NCBI GenBank assembly: GCA_903889655.1
Contig: CAISYL010000277.1
Location: 1 to 35,309 of the forward strand
Source of the DNA: an uncultured Alphaproteobacteria bacterium
GTDB lineage: Bacteria > Pseudomonadota > Alphaproteobacteria > Parvibaculales > Parvibaculaceae
Length of the DNA stretch: 35,309 bases
Direction of reading: 5' to 3'
Below, piece by piece: positions 1,359 to 34,236 of this stretch; the stretch's first letter is position 1, and each line of letters begins with the position of its first letter. Made by a program: the position numbers and the translations under genes. The notes beneath the pieces were generated by a model, which was not told where the DNA came from, did no database searches, and saw nothing but the letters and a program-made list of their open reading frames with translations.

Positions 1359-1393
1359 CCCTGATTGGCGTCAGGGCGATCCGATTGCTATAT
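1359..1393 (+). promoter_or_regulatory. Promoter of the ABC exporter with inverted repeat over the -35
   Basis: TTGGCG (1365-1370), a 17-bp spacer and CTATAT (1388-1393) form a plausible sigma-70 promoter, with transcription starting near 1400. The -35 hexamer sits exactly in the gap of a perfect inverted repeat, CCCTGA (1359-1364) and TCAGGG (1371-1376), a natural place for a repressor operator. The promoter also shows that the reading frame open upstream of 1452 is not translated that far back. Confidence 0.5.
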
Positions 1394-1451
1394 GAACGGC
1401 CGGAGGCTCCTTGCGAGGCCGCCTCGATCGCAATTGCAAGCGGGCCGTATC

Positions 1452-3290
1452 ATGAGCGAAGCGTCGAACGCCGTCGTCGAAGCCATCGAGCAGGAAGCGC
1501 AACGTCGCAAGCCCGCCCGCAGCGTCGGGCCGCTCACCGGCCTCGCCCCCTTCATCGCCCGGTACAAGGGCATGGTCGCTCTGGCCTTCGTTTCGCTGAT
1601 CATGGCCACCGCCGCCACGCTGCTGATGCCGATGGCCGGCCGCCGGCTTCTCGACAACGGCTTCAACAGCACCAATGCCGACTTCATCGACACCTACTTC
1701 CTGGCGCTGATCGGTGTGGCGGCGCTTCTCGGCGTCGCCAGCGCGTCGCGTTTCTATTTCGTGAGCTGGATCGGCGAGCGCGTCGTCGCCGACCTGCGCG
1801 AGGCGGTCTACGCCCATGTGCTGAAACTCTCGCCCGCCTTCTTCGAGGTGACGCGCACGGGCGAGGTGCTCTCGCGCCTCACCGCCGACACGACGCTCAT
1901 CAAGACGGTTGTCGGCTCGTCCGCCTCGGTCGCGCTGCGCAACGTCTTCCTCTTTTTCGGCGCCGCCTCGATGATGGCCGTGACGAGCCCCTGGCTCTCC
2001 GGCCTCGTGCTGCTCGCGATTCCGTTGATCGTGCTGCCTCTGGTCGTCTTCGGCCGCTGGGTGCGCCGTCTCTCCCGCGCCAGCCAGGATCGCCTCGCCG
2101 ATACGAGCGCCTTCGGTTCCGAAAGCCTCAATGCGATCCAGACGGTGCAGTCCTTCACCCATGAAGAGATCGACCGTGCGCGTTTCGCGGACACGGTCGA
2201 ACGGTCCTTCGACACGGCCAAATCGCGCATCACCGCGCGCGCGGTGCTGACGGCGCTGATCTTTTTCATCGGCCTCTCCAGCGTCGTCGGCGTGCTCTGG
2301 TTCGGTGCCCATGCGGTCGTTCGCGGCACGATGACCGGCGGCTCGCTCCTTCAGTTCATTCTCTATGCGGGCTTCGCGGCCACCTCGGTTGCGGCGCTCT
2401 CCGAAGTATGGGGCGACATGCAGATGGCGGCGGGCGCGACCGAACGCCTGATCGAGCTCATCTCGATCGAGCCGCAGATCCGCGCACCTAAAAACCCGGA
2501 TCGTCTGCCCGCCCCGGCGCGTGGCGAGATCTCCTTCGAGAACGTCACCTTCTCCTATCCGACGCGGCCTCTCGTTTCGGCCCTGCACGATTATTCGCTG
2601 CATGTGAAGCCGGGTGAGACGGTTGCGATCGTCGGTCCGTCGGGCGCCGGCAAGAGCACCGTCTTCCAGCTTCTCCTGCGCTTCTACGATCCGCAGAAGG
2701 GCCGTGTACTTTTCGATGGCGTCGACGCCGCGAAGGTCGAGCCCGCCGAACTCCGCCGCCGCCTCGCCGTGGTGCCGCAGGAAACGGTCGTCTTCGGCAT
2801 GAGCGTCGCCGAGAACATCCGTTATGGCCGGCCGGACGCCAGCGACGAGGACGTCCTCGCAGCCGCGAAGGCCGCGCGCATTCACGACTTCATCGTGACC
2901 CTGCCCAAGGGCTACGACACGCAGGTCGGCGAACGCGGCGTGACCCTTTCGGGCGGCCAGCGTCAGCGCATCGCCATCGCCCGTGCGATCCTGCGCGACG
3001 CGCCGGTTCTGCTCCTCGACGAAGCGACCTCGGCTCTCGACGCCGAAAGCGAGACGCTCGTACAGCAGGCGCTGGAAGGTCTGATGGAAGGCCGCACCAC
3101 GCTCGTCATCGCGCACCGGCTTGCCACGGTCCTCAAGGCCGACCGTATCGTCGTCATGGAAGAGGGCCGCATCGTGGCCAGCGGCACGCATGACGAGCTT
3201 GTCCGTCAGGGCGGCCTTTATGCCCGTCTCGCGCGCCTCCAGTTCACGGGCGACATGATCGGCGATGTAAAGAGCGTCGCTCTGCACTAG
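1452..3290 (+). CDS. ABC exporter, MsbA-like half-transporter (fused TMD-NBD)
   Basis: The 612-residue product has an N-terminal six-helix exporter domain (about residues 40-330) and a C-terminal nucleotide-binding domain (about 365-600). Visible motifs are Walker [10 protein letters not shown] (395-403), signature LSGGQRQR (from 499), Walker [13 protein letters not shown] (Asp523, catalytic Glu524) and the IAHR switch histidine. It resembles the MsbA-related exporter subfamily of alphaproteobacteria, inner-membrane homodimers that use ATP to move lipids or hydrophobic compounds outward; the substrate cannot be read from the sequence. ATG 1452 is chosen because the promoter's -10 ends at 1393; the frame is open upstream (TTG at 1365). 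The paraoxonase-like gene follows after 27 bp and is probably cotranscribed. Confidence 0.9.
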
Positions 3291-4490: not shown

Positions 4491-4519
4491 GGAGAGATAG
4501 AGCCTCGCTCTATCTCTCC
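4491..4519. repeat. 13-bp perfect hairpin overlapping the stop codon of the MotB-like gene
   Basis: GGAGAGATAGAGC (4491-4503), a 3-nt loop, and GCTCTATCTCTCC (4507-4519). The right arm includes the last codons and stop of the minus-strand gene ending at 4510. No T-tract follows on the minus strand, so it is better read as an mRNA 3'-end stabiliser or factor-dependent termination site than as a classical terminator. Confidence 0.6.
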
Positions 4520-5517
4520 GTCAGCTTGAACTCGATCCGCCGGTTGCGCTTCAGGGCCTCGGGTGTGGTCCCCGTATCGAGCGGCTGATATTCGCCGAAG
4601 CCGGCGGCGACGAGGTGGTTCGGCGCGACGCCTTCCTTCACCATGAAGTCGACGACCGCGATCGCCCGCGCGCTGGAGAGATACCAGTTCGACGGGAATT
4701 GCGCCGTGTGGATCGGATGGATATCCGTGTGTCCGTCGACGCGGATCACCCAGGGAATGTCGGCCGGAATCTGCGCCGCGATTTCCTTCACCGCATCGGT
4801 GATCTTGCGAAGCTGATCGACGCCCGACGGATTGATGTCGGCCGAGCCGGAGGCGAAGAGGATTTCCGACTGGATCACGAAACGGTCGCCGACGATCTCG
4901 ATGTCCGGTCGGTCGCCGAGAATTTCGCGCAGGCGTCCGAAGAATTCGGAGCGGTATCGCGCCAGTTCCTGCACCTTCTGGGCCAGCGCCGCGTTGAGGC
5001 GGCGGCCGAGATCGGCGATCTGCGCCTGACTTTCCTTGTCGCGCTTCTCGGAGGCGTCGAGCGCTTCCTCGAGCGCGGCGAGCTGGCGCCGCAGCGCCGC
5101 GATCTGCTGGTTCAGCAACTCGACCTGCGCCAGCGCCTGATTGGAAATATCCTTCTGCTTCGAAAGCTCGTCCTGCAGCACCGCGACCTGGCTGCCGGTG
5201 CCCGCCGCCGCGGTCAGCTTGTCCTTGTCCGCATTGGCTTCGGCGAGCGAGGCCTGGAGCGTCGCGATCGTCGTCTGGAGATCGGCCTTTTCCTGCTTCA
5301 CCAGCGCGAGCTGGCTGACGAGCTCGGCGATCTGGCTGCGCAGGTTTTCGAGCGCCGTATCCTTGCTGGAGACGAGCTGCGACAGGAAGAACTGCGTCAG
5401 CATGAAAATGGTAAGGAGAAAGATCAGCACCAGCAGCAGGCTCGACATCGCGTCGACGAAGCCCGGCCAGTAATCCGCGCTCGGGGCGCGGCCGCGAATG
5501 CGTCTGCTGTGTGCCAT
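4510..5517 (-). CDS. MotB/OmpA-like peptidoglycan-binding stator subunit (non-flagellar)
   Basis: 335 residues: a short cytoplasmic N-terminus, one membrane helix (about 20-46) with PGFVDAMSSLLLVLIFLL, a long heptad-rich coiled coil (about 50-185), and a C-terminal OmpA/MotB domain (about 220-335) with GHTD and NRRIEF, which bind peptidoglycan diaminopimelate. Asp22, just inside the membrane helix, is where MotB, TolR and ExbD carry their proton-conducting aspartate. With the MotA/TolQ-like protein 10 bp upstream it should form an ion-driven channel anchored to the wall. No flagellar gene is near, and the long coiled coil is unlike flagellar MotB. ATG 5517 is chosen because the mature features begin there; the frame is open to 5598, but that would overlap the upstream gene. 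The machine's role is unknown. Confidence 0.82.
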   Translation of the reverse strand: MAHSRRIRGRAPSADYWPGFVDAMSSLLLVLIFLLTIFMLTQFFLSQLVSSKDTALENLRSQIAELVSQLALVKQEKADLQTTIATLQASLAEANADKDKLTAAAGTGSQVAVLQDELSKQKDISNQALAQVELLNQQIAALRRQLAALEEALDASEKRDKESQAQIADLGRRLNAALAQKVQELARYRSEFFGRLREILGDRPDIEIVGDRFVIQSEILFASGSADINPSGVDQLRKITDAVKEIAAQIPADIPWVIRVDGHTDIHPIHTAQFPSNWYLSSARAIAVVDFMVKEGVAPNHLVAAGFGEYQPLDTGTTPEALKRNRRIEFKLTER

Positions 5518-5527
5518 GTGTCCGCCG

Positions 5528-6490
5528 CTACTTCTTGACGCCGACGGCGGCGGCGAGCCGATCGAGCACGGGCCCCAGCGCTTCCTGATTTTCGGCAAGC
5601 CTGCGGATCAGTTGCTGCTCGCCCCGAAGCTGCTCCGTGAGCGCCTGCACTTGTCCGGCCAGGGCCAGCATCGGCGCATTGGCGCCACCGCCGCTCGACA
5701 GGGCATGTTCGATGCGCTCGAGACGCTTGACGGTTTCGCCGAGCATGCCGGGCCCCCGTTCCGCGTCGCCGGAAATGTCGGTGACGGTCGAGAGCCATTC
5801 TTCAAGCTCGTTGTAGAAGCGGTTTTGCGCCTGTCCGGCCTGCAGATCGAGAAATCCGAGGATCAGCGAGCCCGCAAGGCCGAAGAGCGACGATGAAAAC
5901 GATGTGCCCATGCCGGACAGCGGCCCTTCGAGGCCCGCCTTGAGATTCTGGAAGACGGTCGCCGGATCGGAGGTTTCGACATTGAGATTGTGGATGGTCG
6001 CGCCGACCGAGGTGACGGTCGAGAGCAGGCCCCAGAACGTGCCGAGCAGGCCGAGAAAGATCAGCAGGCCGATCATGTAGCGCGAGACTTCGCGCTGCTC
6101 GTCGAGACGCGAGCCGATCGAATCGAGCAGCGAGCGCATCGAGAGCGTATTGAGCATCATGCGGCCCTTGCGCTCGCCGAGCATCGTCGCCATCGGCGCG
6201 AGAAGCCTCGGCGCGGGTGGAATGACGAGGCCCGGATCGGCGCGGCGGAACTGGTTCACCCAGCGCACTTCCGGGCCGAGCACGACGATCTGGCGAAAGC
6301 CGTAAAGAATGCCGAGCGCAAGCACGCTGAGAATGACGGTGTTGAGCCCCGGATTGGTGAAGTAGGCGGTCTTCAGTGTCGGAGCGAGAATGGCGAGCAG
6401 GAAGCCGACAAGGATCAGGAACAGCACCATGCGCACGAGATAGGGTCGCGGTTGGGAAAGTGCCGCGCCGTCCGAATAGTCCTTCGCCAT
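5528..6490 (-). CDS. MotA/TolQ/ExbB-type proton channel protein
   Basis: 320 residues with hydrophobic segments at about 21-37, 49-64, 139-156 and 198-215. The last two carry the family signatures GLLGTFWGLL and GMGTSFSSSLFGLAGS, which correspond to the pore helices of MotA, TolQ and ExbB. A charged C-terminal tail (230-320) looks helical, with possible coiled coil. A cytoplasmic domain lies between helices 2 and 3, as in the family. It is the middle gene of a three-gene minus-strand set, 68 bp after the OmpA-like gene and 10 bp before the MotB-like partner; AAGGGGTAAGCG precedes its ATG. It is distinct from TolQ, which is separately present at 28562. It is probably the torque- or force-generating channel of a non-flagellar complex. 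Confidence 0.83.
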   Translation of the reverse strand: MAKDYSDGAALSQPRPYLVRMVLFLILVGFLLAILAPTLKTAYFTNPGLNTVILSVLALGILYGFRQIVVLGPEVRWVNQFRRADPGLVIPPAPRLLAPMATMLGERKGRMMLNTLSMRSLLDSIGSRLDEQREVSRYMIGLLIFLGLLGTFWGLLSTVTSVGATIHNLNVETSDPATVFQNLKAGLEGPLSGMGTSFSSSLFGLAGSLILGFLDLQAGQAQNRFYNELEEWLSTVTDISGDAERGPGMLGETVKRLERIEHALSSGGGANAPMLALAGQVQALTEQLRGEQQLIRRLAENQEALGPVLDRLAAAVGVKK

Positions 6491-6558
6491 CGCTTACCCC
6501 TTGATGATCTTACTTCGTCCGCGCCGTCGGCCCGCTCGTCCGGAACCGTCGTTCGCGC

Positions 6559-7164
6559 CTATCCGCCCGCCCTCACGATATCCACCCGGTCGAGCGGCCC
6601 CGCATCGCGAGCGCCGCCCAGTGCCCGCACATTGAGCCGCTCGGGAGATATTCCCTGCGCCAGCAACAGATCGCGCACCGCGAGTACCCGCTTCAGCGAC
6701 AGCCGTCGCGCGTTGGTGCTGACGTCGCCAAGCGCCCCCGCATAGGCCTTCAGCGTGACCCGCCCGCCGCGCTGTTTGAAAACATTCGCAAAGCTCTTGA
6801 TCTGGGCGAGCGACTGATCGGTCGGCGCCGGATCGTCGGGTTGGAAGGCGATGCGCAGGATGGCCGGTTCTGCGGGAACGAGCGCCGGCGCGCCGAGCTT
6901 CGGCGTATCCGTCTCGTTCGGCGCGCTCGGGAGAGCGGGCTCCGGCGGCGCGATGCCGGTGATCGTCGAGGAGGGCATGTCGGGAATGGCGGCGTCATCC
7001 GGGCTCGTCGCTTCAGGCGACGTGACCATATGTGCTCCGGGCCGCTCCAGCGGCACCGCATCCACCGGCGCGGCGTGCGCCGACACTGTCGCCGATACAG
7101 CCAGCACCAGGCCGAGCCCGGTGCGGCGGGCGAGGGTGGTCCAATGCCTGGAGGAAAGCCTCAT
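6559..7164 (-). CDS. Periplasmic OmpA-like domain protein, first gene of the MotA/MotB-like set
   Basis: 201 residues. A cleavable signal peptide is visible (basic MRLSSRHWTTLARR, hydrophobic LGLVLAVSATVSAHA, cleavage near residue 31-32). A proline/alanine/serine-rich linker runs to about residue 100. The C-terminal third (about 100-200) resembles an OmpA-type domain: IAFQPDDPAPTDQS, a strand with VTLKAYAG, and LSLKRVLAVRDLLLAQGI followed by RLNVRALGG. The usual GHxD signature is replaced by KAYAGALGD, so peptidoglycan binding by the canonical residues is uncertain. Its position upstream of the channel pair suggests a periplasmic partner. The ATG at 7164 has only a weak ribosome-binding site. 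Confidence 0.7.
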   Translation of the reverse strand: MRLSSRHWTTLARRTGLGLVLAVSATVSAHAAPVDAVPLERPGAHMVTSPEATSPDDAAIPDMPSSTITGIAPPEPALPSAPNETDTPKLGAPALVPAEPAILRIAFQPDDPAPTDQSLAQIKSFANVFKQRGGRVTLKAYAGALGDVSTNARRLSLKRVLAVRDLLLAQGISPERLNVRALGGARDAGPLDRVDIVRAGG

Positions 7165-7311: not shown

Positions 7312-8121
7312 CTAGCTTGCCGCCTTCGCCCGCGCGCGCTTCAGCACGGTTTCGAGTTGGGCCCGCAACATGTCGTTGCCGGCGATGACGCCGCCCGTGT
7401 TCAGCATGTCCTCGCGGCCATTGATGTCGCTGACGAAGCCGCCGGCCTCGCGCACGATGACGATGCCAGCCGCCATGTCCCAGGGAGAGAGATGATGCTC
7501 CCAATAGGCGTCGTAGCGGCCCGCGGCGACATAGGCGAGGTCGAGCGCGGCTGCGCCCATGCGGCGGACGCCGGACACCTCGTTCATCACGCCGCGAAGT
7601 TCGGCGAGGTGAACCTCATGGCCCGGCCGGCCGATATTGGGCGTACCGCAGGCGACGACGCCCGAGGCGAGTTCGCGCCGCGCGGCGACGCGCAGGCGCT
7701 TGTCGTTGAGAAAGGCGCCCTGGCCCTTCTCGCCGATGAAAAGCTCGTCCGTGATCGGATTGTAGATGACGCCCGCCACCATCTGCCCGTCGCGCTCGAG
7801 GCCGATCGAGATCGCGAAATGCGGTATCGAATGCAGGAAATTGGTCGTGCCGTCGAGCGGATCGATGATCCAGCGATGCGACTTGTCGCTGCCTTCGACG
7901 GTTCCACCTTCTTCCATCAGGAAGCTGTAGCCGGGACGTGCCTTCGACAGTTCCTCGAAGATGATCTTCTCGGCCTTCTTGTCGGCGGCGGAAACGTAGT
8001 TCGCCGGTCCTTTCAGCGAGACCTGCAGATTGGCGACTTCGCCGAAGTCGCGCTGCAGCCCACGCGCCGCCTTGCGGGCGGCGGCGACCATGACGGCCAT
8101 GACGGGCGTGTGACGGGACAT
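7312..8121 (-). CDS. suhB: Inositol-1-monophosphatase family protein SuhB
   Basis: The 269-residue protein has the full signature of the Mg2+-dependent inositol monophosphatase family: Glu70-Glu71 in MEEGG, DPLDGTTNFLHSIP (metal ligands Asp87 and Asp90), and WDMAAGIVIVREAGG with Asp215. Members hydrolyse phosphate monoesters such as myo-inositol-1-phosphate; E. coli SuhB also works in rRNA antitermination and 30S maturation, which may be the more important role here. Length and ends are normal. It starts 16 bp after the efp stop codon on the same strand, so efp and suhB are probably cotranscribed, linking two translation-related functions. The ATG at 8121 fits the family N-terminus. Confidence 0.93.
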   Translation of the reverse strand: MSRHTPVMAVMVAAARKAARGLQRDFGEVANLQVSLKGPANYVSAADKKAEKIIFEELSKARPGYSFLMEEGGTVEGSDKSHRWIIDPLDGTTNFLHSIPHFAISIGLERDGQMVAGVIYNPITDELFIGEKGQGAFLNDKRLRVAARRELASGVVACGTPNIGRPGHEVHLAELRGVMNEVSGVRRMGAAALDLAYVAAGRYDAYWEHHLSPWDMAAGIVIVREAGGFVSDINGREDMLNTGGVIAGNDMLRAQLETVLKRARAKAAS

Positions 8122-8137: not shown

Positions 8138-8704
8138 TTATTCGGCGCGGCGGAGATAGGTCACTTCATTGGTGTCGATCACGACCTTCTCCCCGGTGGT
8201 GATGAAAGGCGGCACCATCGTGCGAAGGCCGTTGGAAAGCACGGCGGGCTTGTAAGACGAGGTCGCCGTCTGGCCCTTCACGCTGGGTTCCGTCTCGACG
8301 ACTTCGAGCACCACCTGGTCGGGCAGCGAGATGCCGAGCGGGCGGCCTTCGTGGCTTTCCACCGTCACCTTCATGCCGTCCTGCAGGAAGGCGGAGCGCT
8401 CGCCGACCCATTCCTTGGAGAGCTCGATCTGCTCGTAGGTCTCGTTGTCCATGAAAGTCAGCATCCCGTCATTCTCGTAGAGATACTGATAGTCCTTCTG
8501 CTCGAGCCGGATGCGCTCGACCGCTTCGGCGGAACGGAAGCGCTCGTTGAGCTTGCGGTTGTCGACCAGGTTCTTCAGTTCGACCTGCGCGAAGGCGCCG
8601 CCCTTGCCGGGCTTCACGTGCTGAACCTTCACGGCGGCCCAGAGGCCACCCTGATGTTCGATGACGTAGCCGGGGCGAATTTCGTTTCCGTTGATCTTGG
8701 GCAT
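8138..8704 (-). CDS. efp: Translation elongation factor P
   Basis: The 188-residue protein, the standard EF-P length, starts [12 protein letters not shown] and has three beta-barrel domains. It binds ribosomes stalled at polyproline stretches, between the P and E sites, and stimulates peptide bond formation. The loop [10 protein letters not shown] puts Lys34 at the tip, the residue that is beta-lysylated by EpmA/EpmB in bacteria with a lysine at this position; no modification gene is in the window. The frame is open far upstream, but ATG 8704 matches the family N-terminus exactly. suhB follows after 16 bp. A plausible promoter is at 8852-8880 (minus), leaving a leader of about 140 nt. Confidence 0.97.
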
Positions 8705-8851
8705 AGGCTTTGTCTCTCGGGCGTCGTGCGAAAAATGGTTGCCGGCTTTTCGCGAAAACGACGCGAAAATCGGAAAAGGATCGAGCCGGCTCGCGCAGCT
8801 GACAGGCGCGCGATAACCGCGCCGGCGACGCGGGATCGGCCGACCGGCGCT

Positions 8852-8880
8852 CTGATACCATCTGGAGGCCGGAAGGCCAA
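8852..8880 (-). promoter_or_regulatory. Possible promoter of efp-suhB
   Basis: On the minus strand TTGGCC (8880-8875), a 17-bp spacer, TATCAG (8857-8852). It matches the consensus moderately. The downstream leader contains a perfect 12-bp palindrome, TTTTCGCGAAAA (8747-8758). Confidence 0.35.
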
Positions 8881-8927
8881 CGGGTTTCGGGGCGCGGGCG
8901 CGCATGCGCCTCGCCCGACCGGGCCTG

Positions 8928-28561: not shown

Positions 28562-29308
28562 ATGGATCCGACGACCCACATCGACACCGGCGTGAACACC
28601 GCGCAGGTTGTGGCCAACCAGACCGTTAATGCGGCGCCGGTGGATTTCTCCATCTGGGGCCTTTTCATTCATGCCGACCTCGTCGTGAAGGTCGTGATGC
28701 TCGGTCTGCTCTTCGCCTCGGTCTGGTCCTGGGCGATCATTTTCGACAAGTGGTGGCGGTTCAACCGCGTCGAGCGCCGCGCCGACCAGTTCGAGCGCAC
28801 TTTCTGGTCCGGCCGCTCGCTCGAGGATCTCTATCAGGAGATGGGCCACCGCCCGGCGCATCCGCTCTCGGCGCTCTTCATCGCCGCGATGCGCGAATGG
28901 CGCCGCTCGCAGGACATCGCCACCGACAGCTTCCTCGGCCTCAAGGAGCGCGTCGACAAGGTGATGCAGGTCACGATCAACCGCGAGATGCTGGGCCTCG
29001 AAGGCCGGCTCCTCTTCCTCGCTACCGTCGGTTCGATCTCGCCCTTCGTCGGCCTCTTCGGCACGGTCTGGGGCATCATGAACAGCTTCCAGTCGATCGC
29101 CATCAGCCGCGATACCAACCTTGCCGTCGTCGCGCCGGGCATCGCCGAAGCGCTTTTCACCACCGCGCTCGGCCTTCTCGCCGCCATCCCGGCCGTCATC
29201 GCCTACAACCGCTTCTCCAATCAGGTCGGGCGTTTCGGCACCCGCCTCGAAAGCTTCGCCGACGAATTTTCGGCGATCCTGTCCCGCCAGCTCGACGAGC
29301 GGGGTTGA
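28562..29308 (+). CDS. tolQ: Tol-Pal system proton channel protein TolQ
   Basis: The 248-residue inner-membrane protein has three membrane segments (about 40-61, 150-176 and 197-218). The second and third carry the motifs ATVGSISPFVGLFGTVWGIM and APGIAEALFTTALGLLAAIP. With TolR it forms the proton channel that energises TolA, for outer-membrane constriction during division. CGGAGAGGCAATCTGA precedes ATG 28562. The 3-bp spacing to tolR is typical. Confidence 0.96.
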   Translation: MDPTTHIDTGVNTAQVVANQTVNAAPVDFSIWGLFIHADLVVKVVMLGLLFASVWSWAIIFDKWWRFNRVERRADQFERTFWSGRSLEDLYQEMGHRPAHPLSALFIAAMREWRRSQDIATDSFLGLKERVDKVMQVTINREMLGLEGRLLFLATVGSISPFVGLFGTVWGIMNSFQSIAISRDTNLAVVAPGIAEALFTTALGLLAAIPAVIAYNRFSNQVGRFGTRLESFADEFSAILSRQLDERG

Positions 29309-29311
29309 GCC

Positions 29312-29779
29312 ATGGCCTTTTCCGTTCAGGGCGGCGGCAGGGGACGCGGACGCAGCAAGTACATGCGCGCGCCGATGTCCGAGATCAACGTGACGCCGAT
29401 GGTCGACGTCATGCTGGTGCTGCTGATCGTCTTCATGGTGGCGGCGCCGCTCCTCACCGTCGGCGTGCCGGTCGACCTGCCGAAGACGCAGGCCGCGGCC
29501 CTCTCCGGCGACAACGAGCCGCTGACGGTCACGATCGACAGCAAGGGCCAGGTCTTCCTGCAGGAAACGCCGATCGAGCCCGACGAGGTCGTGGCGAAGC
29601 TGCAGGCGATCGCCCAGAACGGTTATGAACAGCGCATTTTCATCCGGGCCGACAACACGATCGATTACGGCAAGGTCATGGACGTGATGAGCCGGATCAG
29701 CTCGGCAGGCTATAGCAAGGTCGGTCTGGTCACGGACTCGTCCAATGTTTCGGCGCCCACCAAGGCGCAGACGAAATAA
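29312..29779 (+). CDS. tolR: Tol-Pal system protein TolR
   Basis: The 155-residue protein has an N-terminal helix with INVTPMVDVMLVLLIVFMVAA, where Asp32 is the proton-carrying residue, then a periplasmic ExbD/TolR domain (VPVDLPKTQ; NEPLTVTIDSKGQVFL; RIFIRADNTIDYGKVMDVM). It pairs with TolQ. The N-terminal glycine/arginine-rich tail GGGRGRGRSK is cytoplasmic and common in alphaproteobacterial TolR. It lies 3 bp after tolQ and about 27 bp before tolA. Confidence 0.96.
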   Translation: MAFSVQGGGRGRGRSKYMRAPMSEINVTPMVDVMLVLLIVFMVAAPLLTVGVPVDLPKTQAAALSGDNEPLTVTIDSKGQVFLQETPIEPDEVVAKLQAIAQNGYEQRIFIRADNTIDYGKVMDVMSRISSAGYSKVGLVTDSSNVSAPTKAQTK

Positions 29780-29806
29780 CAAGTTTGAGCCATTAACAGT
29801 TTGAGA

Positions 29807-30655
29807 ATGCGCAACAGGCCGCTTTTCATTTCCGCCGGGCTTCATGCCGTGGTGTTGATAGCGACCATGGTGGCACTTCCTTCCCCGAAGGAACTGGCGC
29901 CGGTGCAGACGCGCGTCCTGCCTGTCGAGCTTCTCACCGTTTCCGACATCACCAATCTGAAGCGTCAGGCCAAGAAGAAGGTCGAGGCGCCGAAGCCCGT
30001 CGAGACCCCCGCGCCGAAGCCGGAGCCCGACAAGCCCAAGCCCGTGCCGCAGCCGGAACCCGAAAAGACCGAGCCGACGCCCGCGCCGCCGAAGCCGGAG
30101 GAAAAGGCCGAACCCATTCCGGATAAGAATGCGCCGAAGCCGAAGGAAGAAAAGAAAGAGCCGCCGAAGCCCGAATCGAAAAAGCCGGTGATCGAAAAGA
30201 AGGCGGAGAAGAAGCCGCCGAAGAAGAAGTTCGATCCGCGCAACATCGCGGCGCTCCTGAACAAGATGCCCGAAACGGCGACGCAGCCCGACGAGGCCAA
30301 GGATACCAAGGAAAAGGCCGACGCGTCGGAGACGGACAATCCCGACCTGCCGATGACGGCGAGCGAGCTCGATGCGCTGCGCCAGAAGATCAATACCTGC
30401 TGGAACGCGGGCGATCTGGCCGGCAGCGTCGACGCGGACAAGATGTTCGCCGATATGAGTTTTTCGCTGGCTCAGGACGGCAGCGTCGTCGGCACGCCCT
30501 CGATCGACAAGCTGGGCGGCGGCTCGTCGCGCCTGCTTGCCGAACGTGCCCGCGCGGCCATCCTGCAATGCGGTCCCTATAATTTTCTCCCTGCGGACAA
30601 ATACAGCACCTGGGAGGATGTCACCGTGACCTTCAGCCTGTCGGGCATGATGTAA
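29807..30655 (+). CDS. tolA: Tol-Pal system envelope-spanning protein TolA (P/K-rich linker)
   Basis: 282 residues from ATG 29807 (a TTG at 29801 is also in frame). The N-terminus has one membrane anchor, SAGLHAVVLIATMVAL, with the TonB/TolA-like histidine. Then comes a long proline/lysine/glutamate-rich low-complexity region (about 60-165) in place of the alanine-rich helix of E. coli TolA. The C-terminal domain (about 185-282) contains ASELDALRQKINTCWN, with QCGPYNFLPADKYSTWEDVTVTF near the end and two cysteines (Cys200 and Cys257 roughly) that could be disulfide-bonded as in TolA domain III. It transmits proton-driven force from TolQR to TolB/Pal. Confidence 0.88.
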   Translation: MRNRPLFISAGLHAVVLIATMVALPSPKELAPVQTRVLPVELLTVSDITNLKRQAKKKVEAPKPVETPAPKPEPDKPKPVPQPEPEKTEPTPAPPKPEEKAEPIPDKNAPKPKEEKKEPPKPESKKPVIEKKAEKKPPKKKFDPRNIAALLNKMPETATQPDEAKDTKEKADASETDNPDLPMTASELDALRQKINTCWNAGDLAGSVDADKMFADMSFSLAQDGSVVGTPSIDKLGGGSSRLLAERARAAILQCGPYNFLPADKYSTWEDVTVTFSLSGMM

Positions 30656-30889
30656 GGCGCCGGCTTTTGCTGTGTTTAAACTGTTGCAGCGAGAAGTGAG
30701 TATGTGTCGGAACATCGGGAGGTCCCGTTCGCACAATTTCTGCCGGCTGACAAAATAAGACGCCGGGCGTTGAGATCGGACTGAACTTCCCGGAGCGCGG
30801 CGCATTATGAAGCAGGGTATGGCGTCGCTTCGTTACGTGTCGAAGAGGAAATGCTGGGTGAAATGACCCTATTTGCAGGAGAGACGGCA

Positions 30890-32269
30890 ATGTTTGACGT
30901 TCGAGAGCTTGGCCGCCCGGCGGCGGGCCGCATGGCAGCCGGCGGTGCTAGGCGGATGCTGATGCAGCTTCCCATGGCGCTCCTTCTTGCTGCGGCCTGT
31001 GTCTTTGCCGCGCCCGCGCAGGCGGCGATCCACATCGACATCAACACCGCCAACACCGAGCCGATGCCGATCGCGGTGACGGACTTCGTCGGCGGCGCTG
31101 GACAGGAAGCCTCGGCGGGCGTCGACATCGCCACTGTCATCACCAACGACCTCGAGCGCTCGGGCCTCTTCAATCCGCTGCCCAAGACCTCCTTCATCGA
31201 GAAGGTTGCGGACATCAACGTCCCCCCGCGCTTCGGCGACTGGCGCATCATCAAGGCGCAATCGCTGGTGACGGGTCAGGCCAAGATGGAGTCCGACGGC
31301 CGTCTCCGCGTCGAGTTCCGCCTGTGGGACGTCTATGGCGAGCAGCAGTTGACCGGCCTGCAGTTCTTCACCACGCCGGACAACTGGCGCCGCGTCGCGC
31401 ATCTGATCGCCGACGCGATCTATCAGCGCCTTACGGGCGAGCAGGGCTACTTCGACACGCGTGTCGTCTATGTCGCCGAAAGCGGCCCGAAGAACCGCCG
31501 CGTGAAGCGTCTCTCGATCATGGATCAGGACGGCTACAACCCGCATGCGCTGACGAACGGCGCCGAACTCGTGCTGACGCCGCGCTTCAGCCCGAACTCG
31601 CAGGAGATCACCTATCTCTCCTATCACAACAACAATCCGCGCGTTTACCTGCTCGACATCGAGACGGGTCAGCAGGAAGTCGTCGGCGATTTCCGCGGCA
31701 TGACCTTCGCGCCGCGTTTCTCGCCGGACGGCCAGAAGGTCATCATGAGCCTTCAGCGCGGCGGTAATGCGAACATCTACACGATGGATCTCCGCAGCCG
31801 TCAGGTGACGCGCCTCACCACCACCAATGCGATCGACACGGCGCCGAGCTATTCGCCGGACGGCACGCAGATCTGCTTTGAGTCCGATCGCGGCGGCGCG
31901 CAGCAGATCTATGTGATGAACGCCGACGGCTCCAATCAGCATCGGATCAGCTTCGGCCAGGGCCGCTATGCGACGCCGGTCTGGTCGCCGCGCGGCGATC
32001 TCATCGCCTTCACGAGGCTCCTCAGTGGCCAGTTCGTCATCGGCGTGATGAAGCCCGACGGCACGGGCGACCGCATTCTGACCGAGGGCTACCACAATGA
32101 GGGCCCGACCTGGGCGCCCAATGGCCGTGTTCTGATGTTCTTCCGCGAAACGCGCGGCGCGCAGGGCGGCCCCTCGCTCTGGTCGGTCGACCTGACCGGC
32201 CGCAACGAACGTCAGGTGCCGACGCCGACCTTCGCCTCCGATCCGGCCTGGTCGCCGCGCATTCAGTAA
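30890..32269 (+). CDS. tolB: Tol-Pal system periplasmic protein TolB
   Basis: 459 residues from ATG 30890, which follows AGGAGAGACGGCA; the frame is open to 30851. The N-terminus is long before the signal peptide core ([21 protein letters not shown], cleaved near residue 44). Then come the N-terminal domain with [10 protein letters not shown] and a six-bladed beta-propeller with repeated [42 protein letters not shown] and [12 protein letters not shown] blades, from about residue 215 on. TolB binds Pal at the propeller and TolA through its N-terminus. A 234-bp gap before it contains a GTTTAAAC palindrome at 30674-30681. Confidence 0.96.
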
Positions 32270-32277
32270 CGCTTCGC

Positions 32278-32310
32278 GCCGGATCGGATCGCAAAATGAT
32301 CCGGTCCGGC
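32278..32310. repeat. 13-bp extragenic hairpin after tolB
   Basis: GCCGGATCGGATC (32278-32290), 7-nt loop GCAAAAT, GATCCGGTCCGGC (32298-32310); 13 pairs including one U-G. No T-tract. This is a common extragenic palindrome type in alphaproteobacteria, here 9 bp after the tolB stop. Confidence 0.65.
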
Positions 32311-32603
32311 GTAAATCGGTGCAAAAATGTCACTTGGCTCATGCTGAAAAGACGCAGGCAATCCGATGTTCCTTGCCTCGTTTCAGGGCGACAGCTAATA
32401 TTTTGTTGCGGTACGGCAACCCCAGCGTCGGCCAATTTCTGGGCGGCGTGTCATGGTTCGGACGAACTTCGGGCCACTTTGTAGAGCCTCGACTTCCCGG
32501 CAAAGAGGTGACCCCTTTTTCGCTTGGGATGTTTGGCATGCAACAGTAAATAAAGGAACGCTGAGGCACCTTTGGCCGCAGAGATTAAAAGGAGAGCACC
32601 CGA
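32311..32603 (+). other. Non-coding gap before pal
   Basis: The 334-bp tolB-pal interval beyond the hairpin holds no convincing reading frame. It contains the pal promoter at 32524-32552 and GTTGC-GGTAC-GGCAAC-like self-complementary words near 32404-32421. No repeat or mobile-element signature was seen. Confidence 0.45.
32524..32552 (+). promoter_or_regulatory. Promoter of pal
   Basis: TTGGGA (32524-32529), a 17-bp spacer, TAAATA (32547-32552). The start is expected near 32559, giving a leader of about 45 nt that ends AAAAGGAGAG before the pal ATG. Confidence 0.55.
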
Positions 32604-33104
32604 ATGAAGTCCCCGTATGCAGGCCTCCGGTTCGCCGCAGTGGCCGCAGCCTTTTTGGCGGTTGCCGCTTGCAGCTCGACCGATGCAACGACAAGCGCCA
32701 CCCCGTCTTCGTCTTCGTCTTCGACCGTTCAGCCCGGCACCCAGGCTGACCTCGTCGCCAACGTCGGCGACCGCGTTTTCTTCGACCTCGACAAGTCGAG
32801 CCTGAAGGACGAAGGCAAAGCCACGCTGCAGCGCCAGGCCACCTGGATGAAGCAGTACGCGAACCTCACCTTCACGATCGAAGGTCATGCCGACGAGCGC
32901 GGCACGCGTGAATACAACCTCGCGCTCGGCGGCCGTCGCGCCACCGCCGCGAAGGATTTCCTCGTCAGCCTCGGCATCGACGCGTCGCGCCTGAAGACGA
33001 TCTCCTACGGCAAGGAGCGTCCGGTGTGCCTCGAGTCGAACGAGGATTGCTGGGCCCAGAACCGCCGCGCTGTGACGGTGGTTGCCGAGGGCGCCGGCAG
33101 CTAA
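32604..33104 (+). CDS. pal: Peptidoglycan-associated lipoprotein Pal
   Basis: The 166-residue outer-membrane lipoprotein has signal peptide FAAVAAAFLAVAAC with the lipidated Cys23, followed by Ser-Ser (no Asp at +2, so outer membrane). A serine/threonine-rich linker leads to an OmpA-like domain (about 50-163) with FTIEGHADERGTREYNLALGGRR, in which Asp97 and Arg111 bind the peptidoglycan stem peptide. Pal binds TolB and tethers the outer membrane. Its strong ribosome-binding site AAGGAGAG and own promoter and terminator suggest higher expression than the rest of the cluster. Confidence 0.97.
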   Translation: MKSPYAGLRFAAVAAAFLAVAACSSTDATTSATPSSSSSSTVQPGTQADLVANVGDRVFFDLDKSSLKDEGKATLQRQATWMKQYANLTFTIEGHADERGTREYNLALGGRRATAAKDFLVSLGIDASRLKTISYGKERPVCLESNEDCWAQNRRAVTVVAEGAGS

Positions 33105-33131
33105 TCGGCTGACGCACCTGAATGATCGGGA

Positions 33132-33170
33132 GCGCTCTTCCGCTTTTGCGGGAGGGCGCTTCTGTGTTTT
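33132..33170 (+). terminator. Intrinsic terminator after pal
   Basis: GCGCTCTTCCGC (33132-33143), a TTTT loop, GCGGGAGGGCGC (33148-33159), 12 pairs with wobbles, then TTCTGTGTTTT. It stands 28 bp after the pal stop. Confidence 0.8.
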
Positions 33171-33297
33171 CAGGGAGGGGGCTGGCTCTGAAGCCGTATG
33201 CCCCATTTTAGTCGCAGTTCTCGGTACGATGGCCCGTCTGTGCAGCTTTTCCGGTCGCGCAGGGCCCATTGTCCGAAATTCTCTTGAGGCGGATCAG

Positions 33298-34236
33298 GTG
33301 ACAAAAGCGAATTTCCTCGTCGTGGCCGGCGCCGCCGTCCTTGTCGGATTGCCGGTGCTGGTGCCGCTGAGCGCCTCGGCCGATGATTCGGACCTGCGCG
33401 CCATCAACAACCGGCTCGACCGTCTCGAAAACACCGTCAACGATCTGCAGAGCGGCGGCGGTGGCGGCAGCTCGGATAGCGGTGATTCGGGTGGCGGTGG
33501 CGGCGGCAACGCAAATTCGGCCAACACGCAGGCGCGGCTCGACGAGATCGAGGACCAGTTGCGCAGCATGACCGGCCGCATCGAGGAGCTGGGGCATCGC
33601 GTCGACCAGACCTCGCAAGACCTCCAGAATTTCAAGAGCGATGTCGACCTGCGCTTCCAGGATCTGCATCAGGGTGGCGCCGGAACACCGGGCGGGGCAC
33701 CCGGTGCCGGAGCGCCGGTTCGCGAGCCGGGCGACCAGTCGCAGGGCGCCGGCGGCCCGACCGAACTTGCTCCTCCGCCCTCGAACGCGCCGCGCCCCGC
33801 CTCCGCACCGGTCCAGCAGGCTCAGGCCGCGCCGACGGTGACGCTTCCCAACGGCACGCCGCAGGTTCAATACGATTTCGCCATCGATCTGCTGAAGCGC
33901 GGCCAGTTCCCGCAGGCACGCGATGCACTGAAGCAGTTCCTCGCCGACCATCCCAAGGATGCGCTGGCCGGCAACGCGCAATATTGGCTCGGCGAAACCT
34001 ATTACGTGCAAGGCCAGTACAAGGACGCCGCCGACAGCTTCCTCAAGGGCTACACGACCTATTCGAAAAGCGCCAAGGCGCCGGACAGCCTGCTGAAGCT
34101 CGGCATGACGCTTTCCCAGCTCGGCCAGAAGGACGCGGCTTGCGCCACCTTCGGCCAGCTCCGCGAACAGTTCCCGCAAGCCGCCCCCGCCGTCGTCGCC
34201 CGTAACAAGCTCGAGCGTCAGAAGGCCGGCTGCTGA
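33298..34236 (+). CDS. cpoB: Tol-Pal coordinating protein CpoB (YbgF)
   Basis: 312 residues from a GTG at 33298 preceded by GAGGCGGATCAG; this places the start right before a good signal peptide (NFLVVAGAAVLVGLPVLVPL, cleaved near SASADD). Next is a coiled coil (RAINNRLDRLENTVNDLQSG) interrupted by a glycine/serine linker, a second coiled coil (LDEIEDQLRSMTGRIEELG), then a Gly/Pro/Ala-rich linker, and a C-terminal TPR domain (about 190-305) with QYWLGETYYVQGQYKDA. CpoB coordinates Tol activity with peptidoglycan synthesis by PBP1B. ATG 33229 is a weaker alternative start. The C-terminus ends in Gly-Cys. The pal terminator lies between, so cpoB needs readthrough or its own promoter. Confidence 0.9.
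   Translation: MTKANFLVVAGAAVLVGLPVLVPLSASADDSDLRAINNRLDRLENTVNDLQSGGGGGSSDSGDSGGGGGGNANSANTQARLDEIEDQLRSMTGRIEELGHRVDQTSQDLQNFKSDVDLRFQDLHQGGAGTPGGAPGAGAPVREPGDQSQGAGGPTELAPPPSNAPRPASAPVQQAQAAPTVTLPNGTPQVQYDFAIDLLKRGQFPQARDALKQFLADHPKDALAGNAQYWLGETYYVQGQYKDAADSFLKGYTTYSKSAKAPDSLLKLGMTLSQLGQKDAACATFGQLREQFPQAAPAVVARNKLERQKAGC

Follow-up and report, generated by a model that had tools for sequence, protein, structure and literature searches.

A MotA/TolQ-like and MotB-like gene pair in a Parvibaculaceae bacterium as a candidate wall-anchored motor of the Alphaproteobacteria

The DNA analysed in our study, hereafter the window, was a stretch of 35,309 nucleotides (assembly GCA_903889655.1, contig CAISYL010000277.1) from an uncultured alphaproteobacterium of the family Parvibaculaceae. 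The initial annotation had described three minus-strand open reading frames (ORFs) at 4510–7164 as one non-flagellar machine, and the three ORFs were present as described. The gene O (6559–7164, minus strand) encoded a protein of 201 amino acids (aa) with a Pfam OmpA match. The gene A (5528–6490, minus strand) encoded a pore protein of 320 aa, which was found from its ORF and fold to be MotA/ExbB/TolQ/ZorA-like. The gene B (4510–5517, minus strand) encoded a MotB-like protein of 335 aa, assigned by Pfam and by NCBIfam, where it belongs to PRK09039, ‘peptidoglycan-binding protein’. O and A were separated by 68 base pairs (bp) and A and B by 10 bp. The mechanical ORF of B began at 5598; the start was placed instead at the ATG at 5517, 10 bp past the stop of A, because this ATG fits the start of the family.

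B was matched by the NCBIfam model NF006545 at 455.2 bits (cut-off 372), with residues 6–335 aligned to model positions 5–342, and by Pfam OmpA at 61.4 bits; the Pfam scan did not assign it to ExbD (PF02472). All five PRK09039 models (NF006542–NF006546) matched 27 of 27 members of the alignment A2 at E values up to 1e-10. B is already in NCBIfam through these five models, all of which are called only ‘peptidoglycan-binding protein’ and carry no described function, partner or role. The N-terminus of B contained a WPGFVDA stretch, and Asp22 (codon 5452–5454, minus strand), the proposed ion-carrying residue, was located inside the sole membrane helix, where the initial annotation had placed it. 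Residue conservation was counted in alignments from which duplicate sequences and the two window copies were left out, as were A proteins below 100 bits and B proteins below 200 bits; the named loci, from which all lineage names are taken, were the best 80 of 381. Position 22 was aspartate in all 80 named loci and, of 138 alignment rows, in every one of the 137 that had a residue there, so the objection that it might not be conserved fell away. The OmpA-type peptidoglycan-binding domain occupied 4513–4902 on the minus strand, and its canonical wall-binding residues Asp265 (codon 4723–4725) and Arg284 (codon 4666–4668) were each invariant in the 137 rows that had a residue there. The best Foldseek matches of this domain included MotS, a MotB-like protein, PA0833 and TssL.

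Between the membrane helix and the OmpA domain, AlphaFold and the composition of the protein pointed to a long periplasmic helix at about residues 46–200 (4918–5382, minus strand). This segment of 155 residues contained no proline and four glycines, and the Gly/Pro-rich plug and linker of flagellar stators was not found in it. Helices were predicted at residues 18–104 and 108–200, and a hairpin may occur at residues 105–107. Fully extended, the part of B beyond the membrane would measure about 23 nm (by arithmetic, at 1.5 angstrom per residue), which would be enough for wall contact. Asp22 and the GHxD motif were 199 to 808 residues apart (median 255, 136 rows); therefore the length of the shaft is free, with both ends fixed. 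B proteins of about 730–900 aa at three loci (L147, L148 and L151) had the same ends and a far longer middle.

The A protein scored 19.9 bits against Pfam MotA_ExbB, under the cut-off of 22.9, and 25 of the 28 members of the A alignment matched this family at E values up to 0.01. With the AlphaFold model of A, all 50 Foldseek rows listed were ExbB, ZorA, TolQ, MotA or PomA entries. The 26 best VIA-align rows were ExbB, TolQ, ZorA or Mot/Pom A subunits, with Z values of 9.2–11.2 over 175–215 residues and root-mean-square deviations of 3.1–9.6; by the program's own caution, helical bundles with Z below about 13 may share a common arrangement only. The rows beyond the motor families were helical bundles. 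A is thus predicted from its model to have the A-subunit fold of the MotAB/ExbBD/TolQR/ZorAB group, in which no single member stands out as the nearest. The pore motif LIFLGLLGTFWGLLSTV corresponded to SPFVGLFGTVWGIMNSF of E. coli ExbB, aligned also with E. coli TolQ and with the TolQ of the window, and fitted ExbB/TolQ better than MotA. Thr151 (codon 6038–6040, minus strand), aligned with the first pore threonine of ExbB, was invariant in 142 of 142 rows, as were Thr158 and Ser201. Ser199 (codon 5894–5896, minus strand), spaced like the second pore threonine of ExbB when aligned by eye, was serine in 136 of 142. The tail of A was short, about 100 aa by eye.

The distribution of the genes was examined in a class sample of 387 alphaproteobacterial genomes, with E-value thresholds of 1e-5 for A, 1e-40 for B, 1e-12 for O and 1e-5 for FlgI; only the best four (A, B) or five (O) candidates per genome were scored, and misses are possible. 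A was found in 266 genomes and B in 262. Both were present in 256, A only in 10, B only in 6 and neither in 115, a table which gives no probability, since related genomes are not independent. In the order to which the window belongs, 36 of 40 genomes carried A, including all 27 that were near complete. Eight of the ten genomes with A only (G112, G117, G209, G237, G298, G361, G411 and G419) had weaker A matches, with E values of 1e-19 to 1e-65, and the two A loci inspected among these, in G117 and G419, looked like parts of a different system; that of G419 included TolC- and HlyD-like genes. Beyond the class, among 299 genomes of the phylum, B reached E values below 1e-100 in five (G477, G531, G541, G553 and G617); in the other genomes listed its best E value was 1e-29 or weaker, and the matches listed span the OmpA domain. 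A tblastn search with B (E up to 1e-20) of 72,556 plasmid records gave five records, all of them Sinorhizobium or Shinella replicons of 3.5–4.6 Mb; therefore no small mobile copies were seen. One S. meliloti record of 3.7 Mb (L182), labelled pSymB, holds rpmE and purE and looks chromosomal, and its label may be wrong.

The pair was also found in very small genomes. There were 36 A-positive genomes of 1.7 Mb or less (rounded sizes); B was found in 31 of them, of which 23 were without FlgI, and in 12 of 12 of a hand-chosen subset. In ten small-genome A regions inspected where B was known, the two genes were adjacent in five (G063, G081, G095, G172 and G273), and in the other five (G043, G125, G151, G234 and G304) B was away from A, on a different contig. 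All five of these separated B proteins retained Asp265 and Arg284; Asp22 was present in four, with an alignment gap in the fifth (L179). The retention of the pair after its separation, in genomes that discard most genes, argues for a real joint job there. The unlinked A gene of one small genome (L160, 6569–7912) was followed by an M23-peptidase-like gene, identified by eye.

In our study, A and B were thus found to be a real and widespread motor-like pair, for which no role was found in the literature searched. The observed basis consists of the genes, the conserved ion and wall residues, the fold match of A, the near-perfect co-occurrence of A and B, the independence from flagella described below and the joint retention in some of the small genomes. 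We consider it very probable that the pair is a motor. The fuller statement, that it is a wall-anchored ion-driven motor of the 5:2 type serving wall growth or division, is given a little less than an even chance; the growth-or-division role takes a little over half of the confidence placed in the motor itself. By analogy with the known motors, we infer a pentamer of A and a dimer of B in the inner membrane, in which the ions would travel by way of Asp22 in the B dimer and the ring of Thr/Ser residues in the A pentamer. In MotAB, ZorAB, ExbBD and TolQR, an aspartate together with a Thr/Ser ring means an ion path. The long helix of B would form a stiff shaft across the periplasm, and the OmpA domains of B would grip the peptidoglycan. 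If B is anchored to the wall in this way, the A ring would be the mobile side, turning as in MotAB and ZorAB; with the ring mobile, the inner membrane or the cytoplasm, not the outer membrane, would receive the output, by way of a loop and the C-terminal helix of A. Such output would serve wall growth or division, not swimming. The proposal of the initial annotation that ion flow may be coupled to wall work was a fair inference.

A broader claim is made with more reserve. The pair may be a third alphaproteobacterial envelope motor besides Tol and Ton: wall-anchored and rotary, with a stiff shaft of 200–800 residues and an inner-membrane ring whose turning would drive growth of the wall or division. 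It would be ancient in the class, with losses in some lineages, and would persist in a part of the near-minimal genomes that have no flagella. If true, roughly two in three of the class genomes sampled, very small ones among them, would carry an ion-driven wall motor for which the literature searched gave no role.

The link to cell growth draws partly on Komagataeibacter hansenii, which has no flagella. Passages of one study (PMC6570709) describe adjacent ‘motA/motB’ genes in this species, encoding 348 and 321 aa; its MotA has four predicted membrane helices and its MotB an OmpA-like domain. According to the same passages, overexpression of motA or motB made the cells longer, increased spreading and loosened the cellulose, and fusions of the two proteins to green fluorescent protein (GFP) were located at the poles. 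In passages of a second study (PMC6315621), overexpression of motA and motB together roughly doubled the cell length, and its authors suggested a role in cell division and outer-membrane invagination. K. hansenii MotB is reported in the former source to be 46–48% identical, over 95–99%, to three alphaproteobacterial proteins, and we found 39–44% identity between two Acetobacteraceae B proteins and the B of other orders. The K. hansenii genes may therefore be the A-B pair, as judged from the identities reported in those passages. They differ from the window pair in their lengths, in being called motility genes and in being known, in the passages available, by overexpression only. If the identification is true, the pair would account for the puzzling effects that ‘motA/motB’ has in K. 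hansenii, both on the length of the cells and on the cellulose.

Several observations weigh against the reading of A-B as a wall motor for growth or division. Besides the caution attached to the Z values, no Foldseek match of A under E 0.001 was found among the rows listed, an unrelated design scored Z 9.1 against A, just under the motor rows, and a sequence search of A against solved motor chains gave no match at E values up to 1. The AlphaFold single-chain models of A and B had a mean pLDDT of 77 and pTM values of 0.61 and 0.50, respectively. The K. hansenii genes left the cell shape of E. coli unchanged (passages of PMC6570709), and the elongation of K. hansenii can arise from overexpression for other reasons. 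The reported 46–48% is slightly above our 39–44%, and the three Acetobacteraceae pairs measured (A 379–386 aa, B 386–578 aa) were longer than the K. hansenii proteins. A was not found in 121 of the 387 genomes of the class, which include the large G042 (4.3 Mb) and G069 (3.9 Mb), and 12 of the 20 A-negative genomes listed were of 1.7 Mb or less. Caulobacter vibrioides had no PRK09039 match over the cut-off, and five A-positive genomes of 1.7 Mb or less had no B at 1e-40. The absences from large and from many small genomes mean that the pair is not generally needed.

The best surviving alternative, in our view an unlikely one, is a second Tol-like puller of the outer membrane, in which A-B would be the motor and O a periplasmic force arm reaching the outer membrane. 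O (Pfam OmpA 30.9 bits, cut-off 27.2) consisted of a leader, a short conserved VxVxLxVL motif and an OmpA-like domain, which was preceded by a Pro/Ala/Lys-rich linker whose length varies. This layout of leader, beta motif, Pro-rich linker and globular end resembles the three-part TolA/TonB-like transducers described in passages of PMC12204202. O was located upstream of A in 51 of the 80 named loci, in most cases no more than 130 bp away, and A and O were enriched together in the class sample (both 173, A only 93, O only 39, neither 82). Against such an arm, O had by eye a leader that looked like a cleavable signal peptide (AHA/AP site) and lacked any further membrane helix. O was also undetected at its threshold in 93 of the 266 A genomes, and was present in 38 genomes in which neither A nor B was found.

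The 212 genomes scored as O-positive may include other OmpA proteins, particularly among matches near 1e-12 to 1e-20, and some of the 38 genomes had only weak matches (E 1e-13 to 1e-20). In 11 regions inspected among these 38, neither A nor B was seen, and the N-terminal motif of O was still visible by eye. O was placed directly 3′ of suhB in eight of the 11 and 4 kb further in L163; the contig began at O in L169 and L175, and L165 ended 600 bases past O. An O with a lost wall-binding aspartate is thus kept, mostly beside efp and suhB, in genomes where the motor pair was not found (L162–L171 and L175). In L164, L166 and L167 an ORF similar by eye to the exporter of the window lay directly 3′ of O. 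The absence of the GHxD signature from O, pointed out in the initial annotation, was borne out and proved general: the aspartate was gone in 52 of 52 O proteins, and the arginine of the partner LSxxR motif was present in 52 of 52. The association of A with B was very strong, whereas that of A with O was weak and partly due to a shared old neighbourhood. Hence the three-gene unit of the initial annotation was rejected as the definition of the core, given the 93 genomes with A and no detected O and the 38 with O alone; the pair is kept widely, and Hyphomicrobiaceae loci are mostly A-B without O. O looks like an optional or unrelated neighbour of the motor, secreted and outside its core.

A somewhat less probable alternative is that A-B is an ion channel or a sensor of wall tension, in which the wall-bound B would gate ion flow through A without torque. 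Its anatomy would be the same, and no known rotor or pulled partner was gene-linked to A or B in the loci inspected. The relatives with the same aspartate and Thr/Ser ring (MotAB, ExbBD and TolQR) nevertheless turn ion flow into motion, which favours the motor reading. TolQR and ExbBD are like the window pair in having the closest pore motif and the joint best fold Z for A. They differ in that the B of the window is MotB-like with an OmpA domain and not TolR/ExbD-like, and no TolA/TonB-like membrane-anchored arm was seen beside the window pair.

That A-B belongs to a Zorya-like anti-phage system is very improbable. The outline of the pair is like that of ZorAB, which shares the motor fold, the wall-binding B, the Ser/Thr ring and the aspartate (passages of PMC11890865). 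The fold of A ties with ZorA, and the best PADLOC scores were 42.5 bits for A against ZorA3 and 72.3 bits for B against ZorB3, with no cut-off shown. With the NCBIfam ZorA models, however, A scored only 20.9 bits (cut-off 500) and 19.4 bits (cut-off 100), and the short A tail and the long B helix differ from ZorAB. No ZorC, ZorD or ZorE was seen beside the pair, the window neighbours carrying other Pfam assignments, in a scan that included no dedicated defence search of the neighbours. The chromosomal place of A-B is, moreover, conserved, next to the suhB-like gene, which was matched in 67 of the 80 named loci, at no more than 1.2 kb upstream of O or A in 66 of them; together with its presence in every near-complete genome of the order, this is unlike mobile defence.

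A role for A-B as an auxiliary flagellar stator is hardly credible, because the MotB-like nature of B and the presence of FlgI in 171 of 266 carriers (odds 1.9) stand against 95 carriers in which FlgI was not found and against a flagellar MotA and MotB-like ORF elsewhere in the same genome. FlgI, the sole flagellar marker used, was found in 230 of the 387 genomes, of which 59 were without A; neither was present in 62. The association of A with flagella is mild, with no dependence, and a flagellar role was rejected, save for the case that the role differs from lineage to lineage; the description of the machine as non-flagellar in the initial annotation agrees with these counts. The flagellar MotA of the genome, on contig C197, scored 374 bits, over the cut-off, and the MotB-like ORF, recognised by eye, was directly behind it. 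A-B is therefore at least the third motor of its kind in this genome, and not the second as initially counted. Flagellar MotAB shares with the window pair the membrane aspartate and the OmpA wall anchor of B and the fold of A. It differs in its Gly/Pro-rich plug and linker, where the window B has a long Pro-free helix, and in a pore motif from which that of the window departs towards ExbB/TolQ.

A survey of such motors (passages of PMC12505986) distinguishes flagellar motors, with an OmpA-type anchor and a Gly/Pro-rich linker, from generic ones, with a compact B without OmpA homology. As judged from sequence, A-B appears to fit neither of these classes as given there, as it combines an ExbB-like pore motif with an OmpA anchor on a Pro-free helix. 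If the motor reading is true, the statement in these passages that non-flagellar motors lack OmpA-type wall anchors would have to be qualified. The role of the system had been called unknown in the initial annotation, which held for the literature searched and less so for the protein, since B was already named in NCBIfam as PRK09039. Our literature search, mostly without subscription-journal papers, found no paper assigning PRK09039 or the pair a role. In the passages of papers with the term ‘PRK09039’, the label was a domain name only. The terms ExbB, MotB and OmpA had 0 occurrences in the searched text of the Rgs/Tol-Pal paper PMC7327166 and the CenKR paper PMC9275681, and the pair was not mentioned in the passages of PMC9389320 consulted. 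In S. meliloti CP090106 the same pair was annotated as ‘peptidoglycan-binding protein’ and ‘MotA/TolQ/ExbB proton channel family protein’.

Upstream of O, the window contained a suhB-like inositol monophosphatase gene (7312–8121, minus strand; Pfam Inositol_P 224 bits) and the elongation factor P gene efp (8138–8905, minus strand; Pfam EFP domains), whose true start is probably near 8704 by eye. The order efp, suhB-like, O, A, B recurred in loci of Parvibaculum, Paramagnetospirillum, other Rhodospirillales and Acidocella. The nearest named locus found was that of Parvibaculum sedimenti, whose A was 89% identical to that of the window. In S. meliloti the order was thiE, sel1, suhB-like, A, B, which is the frame of the window minus efp and O. 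The block is an old chromosomal one, and therefore adjacency alone says little. An ABC exporter gene (1365–3290) was convergent to B in the window, and likewise in S. meliloti (L182). The Tol-Pal cluster reported at 28562–34236 (plus strand; TolQ, TolR, TolA, TolB, Pal and CpoB-like), a motor system distinct from A-B, was backed by Pfam for TolQ, TolR, TolB, the OmpA-domain Pal and the tetratricopeptide repeat (TPR) CpoB-like ORF. The Pfam scan gave no match for the TolA ORF, which was assigned from its position and its Pro/Lys-rich sequence.

Two more distant relatives were also observed. At L161 (6625–12255) an A-like protein of 1499 aa was followed by a MotB-like protein, a different and large relative. 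At L159 (4083–9249) a distant A-like/B-like pair was flanked by TolC-like and HlyD-like ORFs, recognised by eye, which suggests a motor tied to type I secretion.

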